Positions 52,998-59,183 of a stretch of DNA of 64,000 nt are shown here, piece by piece; the stretch's first letter is position 1, and each line of letters starts with the position of its first letter. The notes below the pieces were generated by a model. It saw nothing but the letters and a program-made list of their open reading frames with translations. It did not search any database and was not told where the DNA came from. The stretch is from Gordonia namibiensis NBRC 108229 (lineage in GTDB: Bacteria; Actinomycetota; Actinomycetes; Mycobacteriales; Mycobacteriaceae): the NCBI RefSeq assembly GCF_000298235.1, contig NZ_BAHE01000009.1:1-64000 (forward strand), written 5' to 3'. Made by a program: the position numbers and the translations under genes.

Positions 52998-53762
52998 ATG
53001 ACCACCATGTGGAACGCCTCCTACCGGTCCCGACGCCGCGCCGGCCGTCGCCGCGATCCCGAGCAGGCACGATTCCTCACTCTCGATTCGCTGCGCTGGG
53101 TGAAACGCAATCGCGCGTACACCCCGTGGTACCTGGTCCGTTACTACCGTCTCGCGAAGTTCCGCCTGGCCAACCCGCATGTCGTGCTGCGCGGCATGGT
53201 GTTCCTCGGCCGCAACGTGGAGATCCACTGCACGCCCGAGCTTGCCCGGATGGAGATCGGCCGCTGGGTGCACATCGGCGACGGCAACTCGATCCGCTGC
53301 CACGAGGGCAGCCTGAAGATCGGCGACAAGACCGTCTTCGGCTGCAACAACGTCGTGAACGCCTACCTCGACCTCGAGATCGGCGGGTCCACGCTCATCG
53401 CCGACTGGTGCTACATCTGCGACTTCGACCACAAGATGGACGACATCACGCTCCCCATCAAGGACCAGGGCATCGTGAAGGGCCCGGTCCGCATCGGACC
53501 CGACACCTGGGTGGCGGCCAAGGTGTCGGTATTGCGCAACACCATCGTCGGCCGCGGCTGTGTCCTCGGTTCGCATGCAGTGGTCAAGGGCGTGATCCCC
53601 GACTACTCGATCGCGGTCGGAGCCCCCGCCCGCGTGGTCAAGAACCGCATGGACGACTGGGCGAAGAACGCTGAACAGCGCGCCGAACTCGAACGCGCCC
53701 TCGCCGACATCGAACGCAAGAAGGCGGCCGCCGAGAAAGCTGCCGCGGAGCGGGCGAAGTAG
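52998..53762 (+). CDS. Hexapeptide-repeat acyltransferase (Rv3034c-like)
   Basis: A 254-residue left-handed beta-helix transferase. Hexapeptide turns run from about residue 60 to 200 (MVFLGRNVEIHCTPELARME, GDKTVFGCNNVVNAYLDLEI, RIGPDTWVAAKVSVLR, GCVLGSHAVVKGVIPDYSIA). An Ala/Lys/Glu coiled coil closes it. The M. tuberculosis counterpart is proposed to acylate MGLP. ATG 52998 is 7 bases after a TAGGGT -10-like hexamer, so the message may be leaderless. It points towards the SipW-type cluster, separated by a palindrome. Confidence 0.85.
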   Translation: MTTMWNASYRSRRRAGRRRDPEQARFLTLDSLRWVKRNRAYTPWYLVRYYRLAKFRLANPHVVLRGMVFLGRNVEIHCTPELARMEIGRWVHIGDGNSIRCHEGSLKIGDKTVFGCNNVVNAYLDLEIGGSTLIADWCYICDFDHKMDDITLPIKDQGIVKGPVRIGPDTWVAAKVSVLRNTIVGRGCVLGSHAVVKGVIPDYSIAVGAPARVVKNRMDDWAKNAEQRAELERALADIERKKAAAEKAAAERAK

Positions 53763-53805: not shown

Positions 53806-53846
53806 GATCAGCAATAGGTACCGCCTGGCGATACCTATTGCTGATC
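53806..53846. terminator. Near-perfect 41-bp palindrome (terminator or REP-like element)
   Basis: GATCAGCAATAGGTACCGCC and its inverse around one T, with a single mismatch. The last two bases overlap the stop codon of the minus-strand signal peptidase gene. The same element, degenerate, occurs at 12481. It probably terminates both converging transcripts. Confidence 0.8.
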
Positions 53847-55392
53847 AGGATTCGGCGGGTTCATCCGCAGACGGCACCGATGTGGCGGCCGGGGTGGGTG
53901 TCGAGTCCGACGGCGCGTCGCGGTCCTCCGTCGGAGCCTTCGTCCCGGCGGCTGCAGGTTCGACGACGGTCTCGGTCCACCGGTTCCCGTCCCGCTCGAC
54001 AGTTGTCATCGTGCCGTCGGGGTCGGTGATCTCCAGGGTCGATGTCTCGGGAAGCCAGCGGATCTCGCTGTTGGACGAGAACCGGCCCTCGTACTCACGC
54101 TCGCCGGTTTCCGCGCTACGGATCGTCACCTTCCCGCCTGACTCGTAGTAGGCGTAATCGCCGGCATCGGACAGGGTTCCGCCGTCCGGAAGTTGGGCGG
54201 TCTCCGATGTCTTGGTCTCGACGGTTTCGACGGGCTCGGCTTCGCTGTTTTCCGAAGCTCCGGGATCGGCGGAATCCGGGGAACCGGGGGCCGACTCCGG
54301 TGCCGCACGAAATGCTGCCGCGCCTGCTGGGCCGTTGACGGTTCCCTGGGTCACGCATTTGATGCCGGCTGGGAGCTCGAGGGTCGTCGTGCTTCGTATG
54401 GTCTGGCTGAGGTAGGAGACAGACCGGAACTCACCGACCGTATTGGTCAGGCGCACAGAGAAAGTTCCGCCACCGAGAAGCAGGGCAATCAGGGTCTGGA
54501 GAAGGCCGCCCTGAACGCGAAACGTCGCAGGGTTCGCGAGAGTCGAGGCGTCGAGGACTTCGACCTCGCCTCCGGGAAAGGCGAGCTCGTACTGGTACTG
54601 AGAGTTCCCTGCCGGGTTGGGCCAGCTCAGCTCGACGGACGAGAACAGTCCGATGATTCCCAGAAGGGAAACGGTGATGTTGTTGCACGTGAACGACGTG
54701 GGGTTCGCCGGCCTTCCCGCGGTGACCGCACCGGTCGCAGTCGCTTGCCCAGTGAGCGCATGAGCATCCCCAGTGCCGTGAACCGTCGACGCGCCCAGCG
54801 CGACGACCAGGGTTGCAGCAGTTCCTGCCAGAAGTCGCCGCCCTGCTGGCGAATTCCGCCATCCCGGTTTTGGTGCGAAGGCGACGGCGAGGAGCAGCAG
54901 AATTGCGAGAGCTTGTAGGGCGAGCGTGTACGGGTTCTTCAGCCAGGCGGCGATGTAACCGAGAAGCGGGACCGTCCCGAAAACGCGGTCGACCTCGGTG
55001 ACGACATACGTATGCGAATCGGCGACGTCGTTCGCATCACCGCGCAGCGTGAGCGACACGGAATTACCGGTACGCCCGTCGACTGACGCGACTCGGTGCG
55101 TGACCCGCACGCCATCGTCGCGAATAACGCTGACGACGTCACCCTGCTGGATCGAGGCGGCCGTCACCGAATGACTCAGTCCAAGCGAGCCGGTTGGGAT
55201 CGTGGGCGCCATGGACCCGGTCTCGAAGATCATCGGACGGACCCCGAAGACCAGCGCGAGGACCGTTGCGATCAGACAGATACTGCCGGCAACAGCACCG
55301 ACTGTCAGCAGCCGATCGGCTCGGTGGCGAGGAATGGGTACCGCGAACTCGACGGTCGGGGAGTCCTCGATGTCGACGTCGATGTACTGCAT
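53845..55392 (-). CDS. SipW/archaeal-type signal peptidase I fused to a large exported domain
   Basis: A 515-residue protein. Residues 1-180 form an S26B signal peptidase: membrane segment 30-52, Ser60 in ETGSMAPTIPTGS, His99 in VRVTHRVAS, Asp119 and Asp122 in RGDANDV, second membrane segment 155-173. A Lys of the classical LepB dyad is replaced by His, as in SipW/archaeal enzymes. A third segment (186-203) leads to an exported part: residues 225-346 form a Cys-bounded beta-rich domain, then an acidic Pro/Ser linker and a second small domain (about 400-480). Its ATG overlaps the upstream substrate gene stop. The fused domain's role is unknown. Confidence 0.8.
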   Translation of the reverse strand: MQYIDVDIEDSPTVEFAVPIPRHRADRLLTVGAVAGSICLIATVLALVFGVRPMIFETGSMAPTIPTGSLGLSHSVTAASIQQGDVVSVIRDDGVRVTHRVASVDGRTGNSVSLTLRGDANDVADSHTYVVTEVDRVFGTVPLLGYIAAWLKNPYTLALQALAILLLLAVAFAPKPGWRNSPAGRRLLAGTAATLVVALGASTVHGTGDAHALTGQATATGAVTAGRPANPTSFTCNNITVSLLGIIGLFSSVELSWPNPAGNSQYQYELAFPGGEVEVLDASTLANPATFRVQGGLLQTLIALLLGGGTFSVRLTNTVGEFRSVSYLSQTIRSTTTLELPAGIKCVTQGTVNGPAGAAAFRAAPESAPGSPDSADPGASENSEAEPVETVETKTSETAQLPDGGTLSDAGDYAYYESGGKVTIRSAETGEREYEGRFSSNSEIRWLPETSTLEITDPDGTMTTVERDGNRWTETVVEPAAAGTKAPTEDRDAPSDSTPTPAATSVPSADEPAES

Positions 55393-55943
55393 CACGGCAC
55401 CGCCGCGTCGAACGTGAAGGTGACTGTTCCGGTGGTCCCGGCCAGGGTTCCGGCAGCGTTCGTGGGCAAGGTCAGCTGCATACACAACGCCTCGGCGCCG
55501 GTCGCCGCGGCCAGGGACGGGCGGGTGGCAAACGTCGTGGCGGTGGCAGTGATCGGCACACCGGTGACCAGCTGCGTACCGCCCGTACAAACGGAACCGC
55601 TGACCGTGCCGCCGGTCACGACGCGCAGTTGCATGGCGCGCCCGAGGGTGGTGGCGCTCGACACCTTGGCGCTATAGGTGAATGCCACGGTGCCAGTGTT
55701 CTGAACGGTCACCACGTTGGCGGTCGTGTCACCCGGCACGAGCGAGCCGGGAAACGCGAACGTGTGCGCGACAGAGCCGTTCGCCTTGATCTCGAGGTTC
55801 GCGGTGGTGAAGGTGCCTGATGTGGTTGCGGCAGTCGTAGACCACAGGGCAGTGGTGCCGATAGCGCTGGTGGTCAGCAGGATCCCGCACGTCAGCATCG
55901 CACGCACCCGGCGTGACGCACCCGGCGACCACCTCAGACTCAT
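55392..55943 (-). CDS. Alternate signal-peptide exported protein (TasA/SipW-substrate type), third copy
   Basis: A 183-residue secreted protein. The basic N-terminus and hydrophobic core are followed by TTALWSTTAATTSGTFTTAN, the SipW-type cleavage region with ALW(S/T). The mature domain is a Thr/Ala/Gly-rich beta sandwich (GDTTANVVTVQNTGTVAFTY) like CalY/TasA-type fibre subunits. It overlaps SipW upstream (ATGA) and the fused peptidase downstream (TGATG), so all are co-translated. ATG 55943 was chosen as the start of the signal peptide. It is probably a surface fibre or matrix protein. Confidence 0.78.
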   Translation of the reverse strand: MSLRWSPGASRRVRAMLTCGILLTTSAIGTTALWSTTAATTSGTFTTANLEIKANGSVAHTFAFPGSLVPGDTTANVVTVQNTGTVAFTYSAKVSSATTLGRAMQLRVVTGGTVSGSVCTGGTQLVTGVPITATATTFATRPSLAAATGAEALCMQLTLPTNAAGTLAGTTGTVTFTFDAAVP

Positions 55944-56641
55944 GCACTCGTCTCCGGATCGGTTGGTGCGGCGTCGGAATCGCTCACGTCGCTCTTTTGT
56001 CGACGATCGGCGATGAACTGCCATGCGCCGTAGACGAACAGCGCGCCCGCGGCCGCGAAGATCAGCACCGTGCGGCGCTGGCCGGTAAACCAGTTGTTGA
56101 CCCAACCGATGAAGGGCACCGAGTACCAGAGGGTGCCCCGCACCTGCACGGGCCGGACGGGCTCGGCATCGGCGATTCCGTTGTTGTCACCCTGGGTTAC
56201 GAATCGGAGCTCGCGCTGCGGGTTCTCGGTCACCTCGATGACCCGATGCGTGATGACTTCCGGTGAACCCGAACGAATCTGATAGGTGACGACATCACCG
56301 ACGCCGATCTCATCCGCAGGCCGCGGTTTCACGACGATGAGCGTGCCCGGCGGATAGTCCGGCTTCATCGAACCGGTGAGAACCGTATAGGGCTGTGCGC
56401 CGGCGATCTTCGGGATCAGGATCGTCGCACACAGGATCGCGACGGCCCCGATGAGCAGCAGCCAGGTGATGCCTTGCCACAAAAAGTGGAGGGCGCCATG
56501 CTTGGTGTCAGTGCCGTCTGCGCTATCTCTATCGGGCGACTTGGTATGAGCCGAATCAGTCAGCGGCGGGGCAGCTTTCACAAACTCGATAGTTCGATGT
56601 TCGTCGACCGTCGTGCCCGGCACGTGCGTGTACTCGTTCAT
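55940..56641 (-). CDS. Signal peptidase I, SipW/archaeal type
   Basis: A 233-residue membrane peptidase. A hydrophilic N-tail (about 1-52) precedes a membrane segment (53-76). The catalytic Ser91 lies in TVLTGSMKPDYPPG, His132 in VITHRVIEV, and Asp152 in TQGDNNGIA; the Lys of LepB is again replaced. A C-terminal membrane segment lies at about 191-211. It would cleave the ALW-type signal peptides of the three neighbouring exported proteins. It overlaps genes on both sides (ATGA), as second or third gene of the cluster. Confidence 0.88.
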   Translation of the reverse strand: MNEYTHVPGTTVDEHRTIEFVKAAPPLTDSAHTKSPDRDSADGTDTKHGALHFLWQGITWLLLIGAVAILCATILIPKIAGAQPYTVLTGSMKPDYPPGTLIVVKPRPADEIGVGDVVTYQIRSGSPEVITHRVIEVTENPQRELRFVTQGDNNGIADAEPVRPVQVRGTLWYSVPFIGWVNNWFTGQRRTVLIFAAAGALFVYGAWQFIADRRQKSDVSDSDAAPTDPETSA

Positions 56642-57213
56642 GGTCGGTCCTGGTCCGCCTTGAAATTGAAGGTGATGGTGAAGGTGGCCGGTTGTTGCCC
56701 GCTCACCGAGACCAGTTCAGCGCGAATGCACCACATGGTCGAGGCGCCCACCGCGAGGGGAAACACCGGGCCAACGATGCCAGTGGGTTCGTCGATGGCG
56801 GTAGTAGTTGCGGAGAATGCGCCGCCCAGCGGGACTTCGATACCGGGACATGTCGATGTCTGACTACCGGACAACTTGATCGAGACTGACGCACCGGGGG
56901 TCGAGACCACTGGTCCGGCGGAGGCCAGATGGAACAAAAGCGGTGTAGAGCCGGTGTTGGCGATCGTCAGGACTGCCTGCGACGACTGGCCGGGAAGCAT
57001 GTTGGTCCCGTTCAGTGCAGGGAAAGTGAAAGACGAACCACCACCGGAACCCGGTGCGAGACCGATCGTTCCGGTGGTGATGTTGGACGTGGGGCCATCC
57101 GCCTGCGCGGTCCACAGCGCCAGAGTGGTCTGTACCGATCCGAAGAGCAGCACGACCACCCCGATCGCGAGGGCCGCGAAGAAGACGCCCCGCCGCTTCA
57201 GGGCCGCGGGCAC
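56638..57213 (-). CDS. Alternate signal-peptide exported protein, second copy
   Basis: A 191-residue exported protein with hydrophobic core FFAALAIGVVVLLFGSVQTT, then LALWTAQADGPTSNITTG with the shared ALW(T) motif. The mature beta-rich domain (SQAVLTIANTGSTPLLFHLA) has two Cys (TCPGIEV, TMWCIRAEL) likely to form a disulfide. Its GTG start and overlap with the SipW gene place it in the same transcript. It is related in design, not close in sequence, to the other two substrates. Confidence 0.76.
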   Translation of the reverse strand: MPAALKRRGVFFAALAIGVVVLLFGSVQTTLALWTAQADGPTSNITTGTIGLAPGSGGGSSFTFPALNGTNMLPGQSSQAVLTIANTGSTPLLFHLASAGPVVSTPGASVSIKLSGSQTSTCPGIEVPLGGAFSATTTAIDEPTGIVGPVFPLAVGASTMWCIRAELVSVSGQQPATFTITFNFKADQDRP

Positions 57214-57226
57214 GAGTAGACCAGCG

Positions 57227-57754
57227 CTACGACGGACGGACCTGATTCAGCATGATCTGCATGCCACTGACATTGATCTGACCGTTGGTGAAATCGGTAC
57301 CTGTTGTTGCAGGGTCGAAGGCCACTGTGACTTTGACAGGCAACACCTGGCCACCGGACACGACAATCGGCGCATTGGTGTAGGCGGCATTGTCAACTTC
57401 GGTTTCGATGTCGACCCGACTTGTGGGAGGCAACGTCGAGTCTGTCCCGAGGTCGGTCACCGAGAGTTGAGCACGCATATTCTTACCCGTGGCAGTGACA
57501 GTACAAGTGACGTTGTACTCCCAAATGTCGCCGGGGACCATGAGCGTGGTGCCTGGTGTCACAGCGGTGACTGGAACGTCTCCCGAGACGTCCGTCCACG
57601 CCCCGTTCGGGCATGCGAGTCCGAAGGCTCCCGCAGTTATATCCGCGCCCGCAACGTCCTCCGCATCACTCCACAGCGCATACGACCCCATGCCTCCGAG
57701 GAGCAGGATTGCGCCCGCGCCGACGGCAATGGCGCCCTTGGTTTTCCGATTCAT
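57227..57754 (-). CDS. Alternate signal-peptide exported protein, first copy (RER_14450-type)
   Basis: A 175-residue exported protein leading the cluster. The signal (NRKTKGAIAVGAGAILLLGG) is followed by MGSYALWSDAEDVAGADITA, the ALW(S) motif. This fits the alternate signal-mediated RER_14450 family known from Rhodococcus (TIGR04089, recalled). The mature part has Cys in LACPNGAW and YNVTCTV. ATG 57754 follows GAAAGGGG. About 145 AT-richer bases upstream should carry the cluster promoter. It could be a fibre or matrix component. Confidence 0.8.
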   Translation of the reverse strand: MNRKTKGAIAVGAGAILLLGGMGSYALWSDAEDVAGADITAGAFGLACPNGAWTDVSGDVPVTAVTPGTTLMVPGDIWEYNVTCTVTATGKNMRAQLSVTDLGTDSTLPPTSRVDIETEVDNAAYTNAPIVVSGGQVLPVKVTVAFDPATTGTDFTNGQINVSGMQIMLNQVRPS

Positions 57755-57899: not shown

Positions 57900-59183
57900 T
57901 CAGGGCTCGACGGGTTTTCCGGGGTCGCGTTCCGGAAGTGGCCGCATGGGGATTTCCGGACGTCCGACGGGGTGACGCACCCGGCGCTTGGCGGCCAGGT
58001 GTACCGCCGCGGTGCGTTCGGCCACCTCGGCCCAGGAGAACTCGGCGGTCAGTCGGGCCCGTGCGCGGACAGCTCGTTGGGCTGCTGCGCCGGGGTCGGA
58101 GAGCGTCGCTCGTACTGCAGCGGCGAGCCCGGCGACGTCGGCCGGTTCGAAGGTGAGTCCGGTGTCGGGTTCCTGAACGGCCTCGCCCAGACCGCCCGCG
58201 GTCGAGACGATGAGCGGGATGCCGGTGGCCGCCGCCTCGAGGGCGACGATGCCGAACGGCTCGTAGCGGCTCGGCAGCACGATGGCGTCGCAACGGTGCA
58301 TGAGGGTCACCAGCTGGTCGTGGTCGACGGCGCCGATGAACCGCACCGCCTTGCTCACCCGATGTTTGCGGGCCTGCTCCATCAGCCACTCGCGCTGGGT
58401 GCCGTCACCCGCGATGGTCAGGGTGGTCCCCGGGTGGCTGCGTCGGATACGGGGGAGTGCTGCCAGCAGGTCCTGCACACCCTTCTCGTATTCGAGGCGG
58501 CCGGCGAACAACAGTTCCGCCGGACCGCTGGTCCGCGCGCGGGCCGCGAACGGCCATGTGCGGATGTCGATTCCGTTGTGGATCACGGAGATGTCGGCGG
58601 CGTCGTAACCGAAGAGTCGGTTCACCTCGTCGCGCATGGACGCCGAACACGTGATGAGTGCGTCGGATTCGGCGACGAGCCACCACTCGACCGAATGCAC
58701 CTGACGGTTGGTGCGGCCGCTGACCCAGCCGCTGTGCCGGCCGGCCTCGGTGGCGTGGATGGTGGAAACAAGTGGCACATCGAAGAATTCGGCCAGCGCG
58801 ATCGCCGGGTGGGCGACCAGCCAGTCGTGCGCGTGCACGACATCCGGAATCCATCGAGTGGAAGAATCTGCGAAAGCCCGCTCGCCGGCGAGGATCTTGA
58901 GCCCGGCACGGATGAAGGAATGGCCCATCGCCAGAGTCCAGGCCATCATGTCCTGACCGAAATCGAACTCCGGCGGATCCTCGGCGACCGCGATCACGCG
59001 CACACCTTCGACGACGGTGTCGGTCGTCGGATGCGTGAGTGCATCGGTACCGGACGGGCGGCGGGTCAGGACCACGACATCATTTCCGGCGGCGGCCATC
59101 TCGGTGGCGAGGTGATGCACATGCCGACCCAGTCCGCCGACGACGACGGGTGGGTACTCCCACGACACGAACAAGATCTTCAT
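57900..59183 (-). CDS. GT4 glycosyltransferase of MGLP synthesis (Rv3032-like)
   Basis: A 427-residue GT-B enzyme. It opens MKILFVSWEYPPVVVGGLG, with RLEYEKGVQDLLAALP and the E-x7-E motif region LPSRYEPFGIVALEAAATG. Rv3032 of M. tuberculosis is an alpha-1,4-glucosyltransferase that elongates MGLP. Here it is the last gene of MGLP trio methyltransferase-GH57-GT4, overlapping GH57 by ATGA. ATG 59183 gives the usual N-terminus. Elongation of the GpgS-initiated chain is the expected role. Confidence 0.92.
   Translation of the reverse strand: MKILFVSWEYPPVVVGGLGRHVHHLATEMAAAGNDVVVLTRRPSGTDALTHPTTDTVVEGVRVIAVAEDPPEFDFGQDMMAWTLAMGHSFIRAGLKILAGERAFADSSTRWIPDVVHAHDWLVAHPAIALAEFFDVPLVSTIHATEAGRHSGWVSGRTNRQVHSVEWWLVAESDALITCSASMRDEVNRLFGYDAADISVIHNGIDIRTWPFAARARTSGPAELLFAGRLEYEKGVQDLLAALPRIRRSHPGTTLTIAGDGTQREWLMEQARKHRVSKAVRFIGAVDHDQLVTLMHRCDAIVLPSRYEPFGIVALEAAATGIPLIVSTAGGLGEAVQEPDTGLTFEPADVAGLAAAVRATLSDPGAAAQRAVRARARLTAEFSWAEVAERTAAVHLAAKRRVRHPVGRPEIPMRPLPERDPGKPVEP

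Follow-up and report, generated by a model that had tools for sequence, protein, structure and literature searches.

The closest described systems are those in which a SipW-type signal peptidase is linked to fibre-forming exported proteins. In the excerpts of the sources that were available, TapA is described as a complete immunoglobulin (Ig) fold which starts TasA filaments by strand complementation and whose gene overlaps sipW (PMC10151520), and the donor strand of TasA begins at residue 28 (PMC9674648). Those excerpts also describe the archaeal bundling pili as fibres built by donor strands and as relatives of TasA (PMC9674648), and the sipW-tasA/calY/CapP system of Bacillus cereus as having several cargo proteins per SipW system and a proposed assembly factor (PMC13082335). 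Here a locus of Gordonia namibiensis NBRC 108229 is compared with them; it lies in positions 1 to 64,000 of contig NZ_BAHE01000009.1, and this whole stretch of 64,000 nucleotides (nts) is referred to as the window. The locus consists of genes for three exported proteins, A, B and C, and two peptidases, SP1 and SP2. With moderate confidence we read it as a SipW-type export and assembly operon, in which A with B/C would polymerise into a surface fibre and the SP2 ectodomain would sit at the membrane. Gene order, signals, catalytic residues, the B-C homology and the fused and split forms of SP2 are seen in the sequences, and folds, cleavage positions, polymerisation and the anchor role are predictions. 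No published description of the unit was found, and Gordonia together with SipW gave no match, in a search whose coverage left out most subscription journals.

The five genes are on the minus strand, run from 57754 down to 53845 and are ordered A, B, SP1, C, SP2. All five open reading frames (ORFs) lie where the original prediction, made from the letters of the window, had placed a five-gene cluster. It had most junctions overlapping by 1 to 4 bases, which holds for three of the four; B-SP1, SP1-C and C-SP2 each overlap by 4 nts (the last by one base with the ATG at 55392 as start), and A and B are separated by 13 nts. The parts are as follows.

57227..57754, minus strand: gene A, exported protein of 175 amino acids (aa), TIGR04089 (RER_14450 family, 128.5 bits), ALWSD at residues 26-30
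57668..57679, minus strand: ALWS motif of A (residues 26-29), predicted cleavage region and donor-strand start, the cleavage by analogy with TasA
56638..57213, minus strand: gene B, exported protein of 191 aa, homologue of C (hhalign), with C122 and C162 invariant in 44 aligned rows
57112..57120, minus strand: ALW motif of B, residues 32-34, kept in the unfiltered count of B genes
55940..56641, minus strand: gene SP1, S26B (SipW/archaeal-type) signal peptidase of 233 aa with two membrane segments (TIGR02228, 88.9 bits)
55392..55943, minus strand: gene C, exported protein of 183 aa, possible distant TasA/BsaA relative, with invariant C119 and C154
55842..55850, minus strand: ALW motif of C, residues 32-34, kept in the unfiltered count of C genes
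53845..55395, minus strand: gene SP2, S26B peptidase with a fused exported domain, 516 aa
54916..55314, minus strand: first membrane segment and catalytic domain of SP2, residues 28-160, with S61, H100, D120 and D126
54748..54834, minus strand: third membrane segment of SP2 (residues 188-206), then A-L-T-G (213-216), a degenerate SipW-type signal by hhalign
54346..54714, minus strand: exported domain of SP2, residues 228-350, possibly FnIII/Ig-like, with Cys 237 and 347, matched by hhalign to separate proteins
53956..54198, minus strand: C-terminal domain of SP2, about residues 400-480, after a Ser/Pro/Glu-rich linker, from the alignment

Relatives were sought in 151 genomes of the window's family and in a draw of 296 genomes from the phylum. 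A first set of regions, drawn from 19 genomes, comprised 20 of the 21 best B matches beyond the window itself, G072 being omitted; the second came from a scan with the A alignment, from which the best 80 of 105 confirmed relatives were taken (the named loci). Profiles made with the sequences of the window and of these 20 regions were applied at 60 bits with flanks of up to 10 kb; in 15 of the 80 named loci the A sequence is one that the profiles already contain. By tblastn the order A-B-SP1-C-SP2 was present in 20/20 regions, which had been chosen by B; L046 has additional gene copies and a 553-nt gap. All five genes were found in 48 of the 80 named loci, in the window's order in 43 (35 exactly, eight with extra genes). 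The other arrangements were A-C-SP2-A-B-SP1 (5), A-SP1-C-SP2 (3), A and SP1 only (25) and others (4). The rearranged and repeated forms indicate two modules, A(-B)-SP1 and C-SP2. An SP1-type peptidase stands near A in 78/80, as expected of a dedicated SipW-type export unit. The 25 A-SP1 loci (L063-L128, mostly Microbacteriaceae and Cellulomonas) gave no SP2 at 60 bits; a weak B/C-like match of 23-45 bits lies near A in 18 of them and none in seven. The suggested restriction to mycolic-acid actinobacteria did not hold: A and SP1 are found together in Curtobacterium, Clavibacter, Herbiconiux and Cellulomonas too, and a Rathayibacter, an Arthrobacter metagenome-assembled genome and Candidatus Avipropionibacterium carry the complete set of five. 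The TIGR04089 cut-off was passed in 55/151 family genomes and in 2/296 phylum genomes, one of which is the window's own. In another genome of the same family there is a tandem array (G110:C1:2196823-2211852), with three equal-scoring A and B matches at a spacing of 3226 bases and more copies alongside.

A, B and C all start with a basic N-terminus followed by a hydrophobic core (maxima over 19 residues on the Kyte-Doolittle scale of 1.76, 2.56 and 1.52), and share a SipW-type signal with ALW[ST] at, or just past, the end of the core, in agreement with what had been read from the letters. Those rows of the alignments A3-A6 that come from the named loci were chosen by a motif pattern, and the invariance of the motif is therefore quoted from a count over the 80 loci made with no motif filter. 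Here the W was present in 81 of 87 A genes (F in four, two unaligned), a figure qualified by the A loci having been found partly via the ALW motif, and both A and W were kept in 48/48 B genes and 56/56 C genes. Since the W is kept in unfiltered B and C genes and in most A genes, the motif is not a product of chance. A scored above the cut-offs of TIGR04089 (128.5 bits, cut-off 60) and of the SipW-dependent signal model TIGR04088 (26.9 bits, cut-off 19). B reached 15.8 bits against TIGR04089, over residues 13-62 only, and is not a member; for TIGR04088 no match was reported for B or C at E 1. Pfam contributed little for the cluster proteins. The original prediction took the three for proteins of different sequence, which stands for mature A and fails for B and C, as these are homologous (hhalign 99.7%, 164 columns). 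That they might be unrelated ordinary Sec or lipoprotein substrates was ruled out by the B-C homology, the common signal class and the linked peptidases.

Both peptidases exceeded the cut-off of TIGR02228, archaeal-type signal peptidase I (51.85 bits), SP1 with 88.9 and SP2 just over it with 52.6, and both fell under the Bacillus SipW equivalog NF046067 (77.7 and 48.6 bits, cut-off 190). The S26B site, with Ser, His rather than Lys, and Asp, was kept in 21/21 cases for SP1 (S91, H132, D152 and D158) and in 52/52 rows for SP2; the SP2 locus rows were picked requiring the Ser motif, which leaves His and Asp as the independent test there. The two predicted S26B peptidases are confirmed. In the 516-aa SP2 the peptidase portion covers only about residues 28-165. 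A tree of 56 SP2 and five SP1 domains placed the two in separate groups with support of 100/100, and carried a long-branch warning for L105_SP2_16161. The tree omits L059, which was also kept out of A6, L060, in which no domain was recognised, and one SP1 row of six. The SP2 profile was made without L046, a partial sequence, and L035, which has the same masked stretch as L059.

SipW-type processing of A, B and C is likely. Sec would insert the three via their N-terminal alternate signals, and SP1 and SP2, as Ser-His-Asp peptidases of the endoplasmic reticulum/SipW type, would cut just before or inside A/LW, leaving LW[ST]... as a free N-terminus; of the steps proposed here these are the only ones that are well supported, by sequence. 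Cleavage had originally been placed past the ALW region, and by analogy with TasA, whose residue 28 is the mature start, it is predicted before or within A/LW instead. The free N-terminus would then act as a donor strand completing the beta-sandwich of the next subunit, as in TasA, to give an extracellular fibre of A with B/C. This predicted polymerisation is plausible. In SP2 the third membrane segment, as an exported protein's own signal, would set the ectodomain on the active-site face, where it would be kept at the membrane as an anchor or initiator if cleavage is lost or slow; the predicted role as membrane anchor is speculative.

The models of A and C are beta-sandwiches, with matches to the TasA fibre for both and to donor-strand pilins mainly for A, at middling Z. 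TasA- or pilin-like folds of the cargo proteins are plausible, with weak scores and matches that are not specific, and C may be a distant TasA/BsaA relative; the surface-fibre role is a prediction. Several results weigh against a polymer. The Z values to TasA and pilins are below 8, a range which the tool calls common; the top nine matches of C are jelly-rolls of unrelated proteins, and TasA ranks 31 among the 50 listed for A, with GH31 and methane monooxygenase domains scoring alike. In profile searches of the PDB with C and with B+C, TasA appeared at E 0.033-0.18, behind Ig domains of the FAP65/FAP74/HYDIN type, and it was not found with B alone or A alone. Mature A lacks profile similarity to B and C (0.4 and 2.7%). 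Of the family models, TIGR04089 and TIGR04088 (A) and TIGR02228 (SP1 and SP2) were reached; A, B and C all stayed below BsaA TIGR04090 (C with 23.1 bits, cut-off 60) and camelysin/TasA PF12389 (C with 13.6 bits, cut-off 22.5), and A and B gave no match to the latter at E 1. The 50 fold matches listed held no archaeal Abp chain.

These results leave room for a dedicated secretion unit from which A, B and C are released as separate soluble or wall-bound surface or matrix proteins, with no polymer. We consider this possible, if on the unlikely side. The signals and linked peptidases support processing better than polymerisation, the conserved Cys pair in B and C fits a closed, stable fold, and the fold matches are unspecific. 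Donor-strand pilins nevertheless make up 19 of the 50 fold matches listed for A, and the stretch at and after the cleavage site is unpacked in the models (predicted local distance difference test (pLDDT) <50 at residues 1-15 and 17-30 of A, and 30-35 and 37-40 of C), though this may equally be plain uncertainty.

The fusion in SP2 was absent from the original prediction. The C-terminal half of SP2 is an exported domain, reached via a third membrane segment; in the window's SP2 a basic loop, PKPGWRNSPAGRR, leads into this segment and then to A-L-T-G. By hhalign the segment matched the signals of C, B and A at 90.8, 87.7 and 61.5%, and the first and second membrane segments, used as controls, matched them at only 0.1-7.9%. 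Among the 56 SP2 of the 80 loci, 46 have >250 residues past the THR motif, and the ectodomain profile matches 42 of the 46; the remainder are L112 with 237 residues, the masked L059, and eight with 94-111. Three of these eight are followed by a separate ectodomain gene (Tomitella biformata L118, Dietzia alimentaria L109 and Candidatus Avipropionibacterium L125), and the second copy in Gordonia G191 (L139) is split too, with two separate ectodomain genes. The other five short SP2 (L088, L098, L102, L105 and L108) are copies in loci also holding a fused SP2, and no separate ectodomain gene was seen for them, no further search having been made. A profile of the five separate proteins matched the SP2 ectodomain at 98.0% (hhalign, E 1.6e-13, 120 columns) and their signals matched at 71.2%; the separate L118 protein found the fused SP2 of L126 at 1.9e-34. 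On the tree the fused state needs five changes, at least three of them forced by well supported branches, and the tree is silent on their direction. Weak fn3-type matches were seen to FN3_Tor in 2/52 SP2 (best E 0.095) and FlgD_ig in 1/52 (0.033), and the C-terminal domain of the window protein had no Pfam match at E 0.1.

We tentatively suggest that SP2 is a peptidase in one chain with its own former substrate, whose signal is the third membrane segment. The ectodomain would be a membrane-held initiator, in a TapA-like role, offering the first donor strand to the A/B/C fibre; cutting in cis would time the release of the fibre, and fused and split forms would have interchanged more than once among actinobacteria. 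Taken together this is doubtful. The match of SP2 to the C signal spans 23 columns only, TIGR04088 matched one of ten SP2-type proteins at 15.7 bits, under its cut-off, and the W of the motif is lost in the window's SP2 and in all five separate ectodomain proteins, so that cleavage at the internal motif is unproven. A fused SP2 may also be simply a peptidase with a long tail that serves as a stalk, for substrate docking or to span the wall, and was never a substrate, a minor but real possibility. It agrees with the W-less A-L-T-G of the window and with the motif counts, A[WFY][TSN]D being kept in 6/52 SP2 and a looser form in 19/52. It fits less well with the four loci in which the tail is made as a protein of its own, starting with a hydrophobic segment, or with the likeness of the preceding segment to the A, B and C signals, which the first two segments lack.

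On the 3' side of the separate ectodomain gene lies a secreted protein in L109 (14257-15792), L118 (14098-14877) and L125 (4752-6350), with, as judged by eye, an apparently ordinary AXA-type signal and, in L109 and L125, Ig-like repeats; it is perhaps a further surface part. The window's genome also holds a second SipW-type module (L141 4759-7971, on G000:C52), made up of an AAWND protein (TIGR04088 20.6 bits, over the cut-off), an S26B peptidase and a 550-aa AAWND protein with relatives in 17/151 genomes. Homology of the SP2 ectodomain to this 550-aa protein was rejected (BLASTP E 1.1; hhalign 0.1-0.2% for the ectodomain and C-terminal parts); the signal segments matched at 22.6%.

The surroundings of the unit comprise the following features.

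57900..59183, minus strand: Rv3032-like glycosyltransferase, matching Pfam glycosyltransferase families
53806..53846, no strand assigned: strong 19-bp hairpin lying where SP2 and the Rv3034c-like gene converge (-35.2 kcal/mol, z -6.6)
53046..53762, plus strand: Rv3034c-like transferase, with a homologue in 57/59 genomes of the genus

The hairpin is without a T-run and was not among the terminator-like structures, and a sigma-70 scan of the region gave 0 sites. The two flank labels follow the original prediction; in M. tuberculosis Rv3033 lies at the corresponding place. Counted from match coordinates, 9/59 Gordonia genomes have A no more than about 4 kb from the Rv3034c-like gene, and eight more have it only elsewhere; placement in the methylglucose lipopolysaccharide (MGLP) region thus applies to the window and some Gordonia, and not to those eight. 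The full unit was found at this site in the window, L029, L049-L051, L133 and L134 (some possibly the same strain), and the MGLP flank was detected at E 1e-40 in 3/80 named loci, all Gordonia. A tie of the unit to the MGLP genes was rejected by the surveys of 80 loci and 59 Gordonia genomes. In four relatives without the unit, 23, 307, 93 and 67 bp separate the flanking-gene matches (L129 ended short of the site), and these short gaps suggest that the unit was gained or lost cleanly. Between G182 (L133) and the window the flanking proteins are 93.1-99.6% identical and A, B, C and SP2 60-69%, with a shorter and weaker SP1 match, which suggests exchange or fast change of the cluster. Its GC content is 63.8%, against 67.6 and 68.1% in the flanks, and is undercut by 9/121 same-size windows in the 64 kb. 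That the unit was recently acquired, or is decaying, and plays no part in this strain today would suit the patchy occurrence (A in 17/59 Gordonia genomes), the close relative with 23 bp and the lower GC, and is improbable, as all five frames are open, the catalytic residues are intact and the gene order is kept across genera.

The unit read as a SipW-type export and assembly operon may represent a means of assembling surface fibres that is new for actinobacteria. If this is right, these bacteria would build TasA-like fibres with neither sortases nor chaperone-usher machinery, the peptidase-substrate fusion would make the start of assembly testable and the TIGR04089 family would gain a role; it would possibly also explain why related strains differ in whether they adhere or clump.

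Among described families, TIGR04089 (alternate signal-mediated exported protein, RER_14450 family) includes A; its title names a signal-bearing family only. As regards the archaeal bundling pili (AbpA/AbpX), AbpX chains were weak profile matches of C (E 0.19 and 0.46). The Bacillus cereus sipW-tasA/calY/CapP system likewise has several cargo proteins for one system, and the excerpts of its description mention neither a second peptidase nor a fusion (PMC13082335). Closest is tapA-sipW-tasA of Bacillus subtilis, in which a SipW-type peptidase is also linked to exported proteins with alternate signals and the genes overlap, and whose TasA fibre appears in the fold-match lists of both A and C. Unlike it, A, B and C are under the TasA/camelysin cut-offs and the peptidases under that of Bacillus SipW, and the Gordonia unit has two peptidase lineages, three cargo proteins and one peptidase fused to an exported domain.

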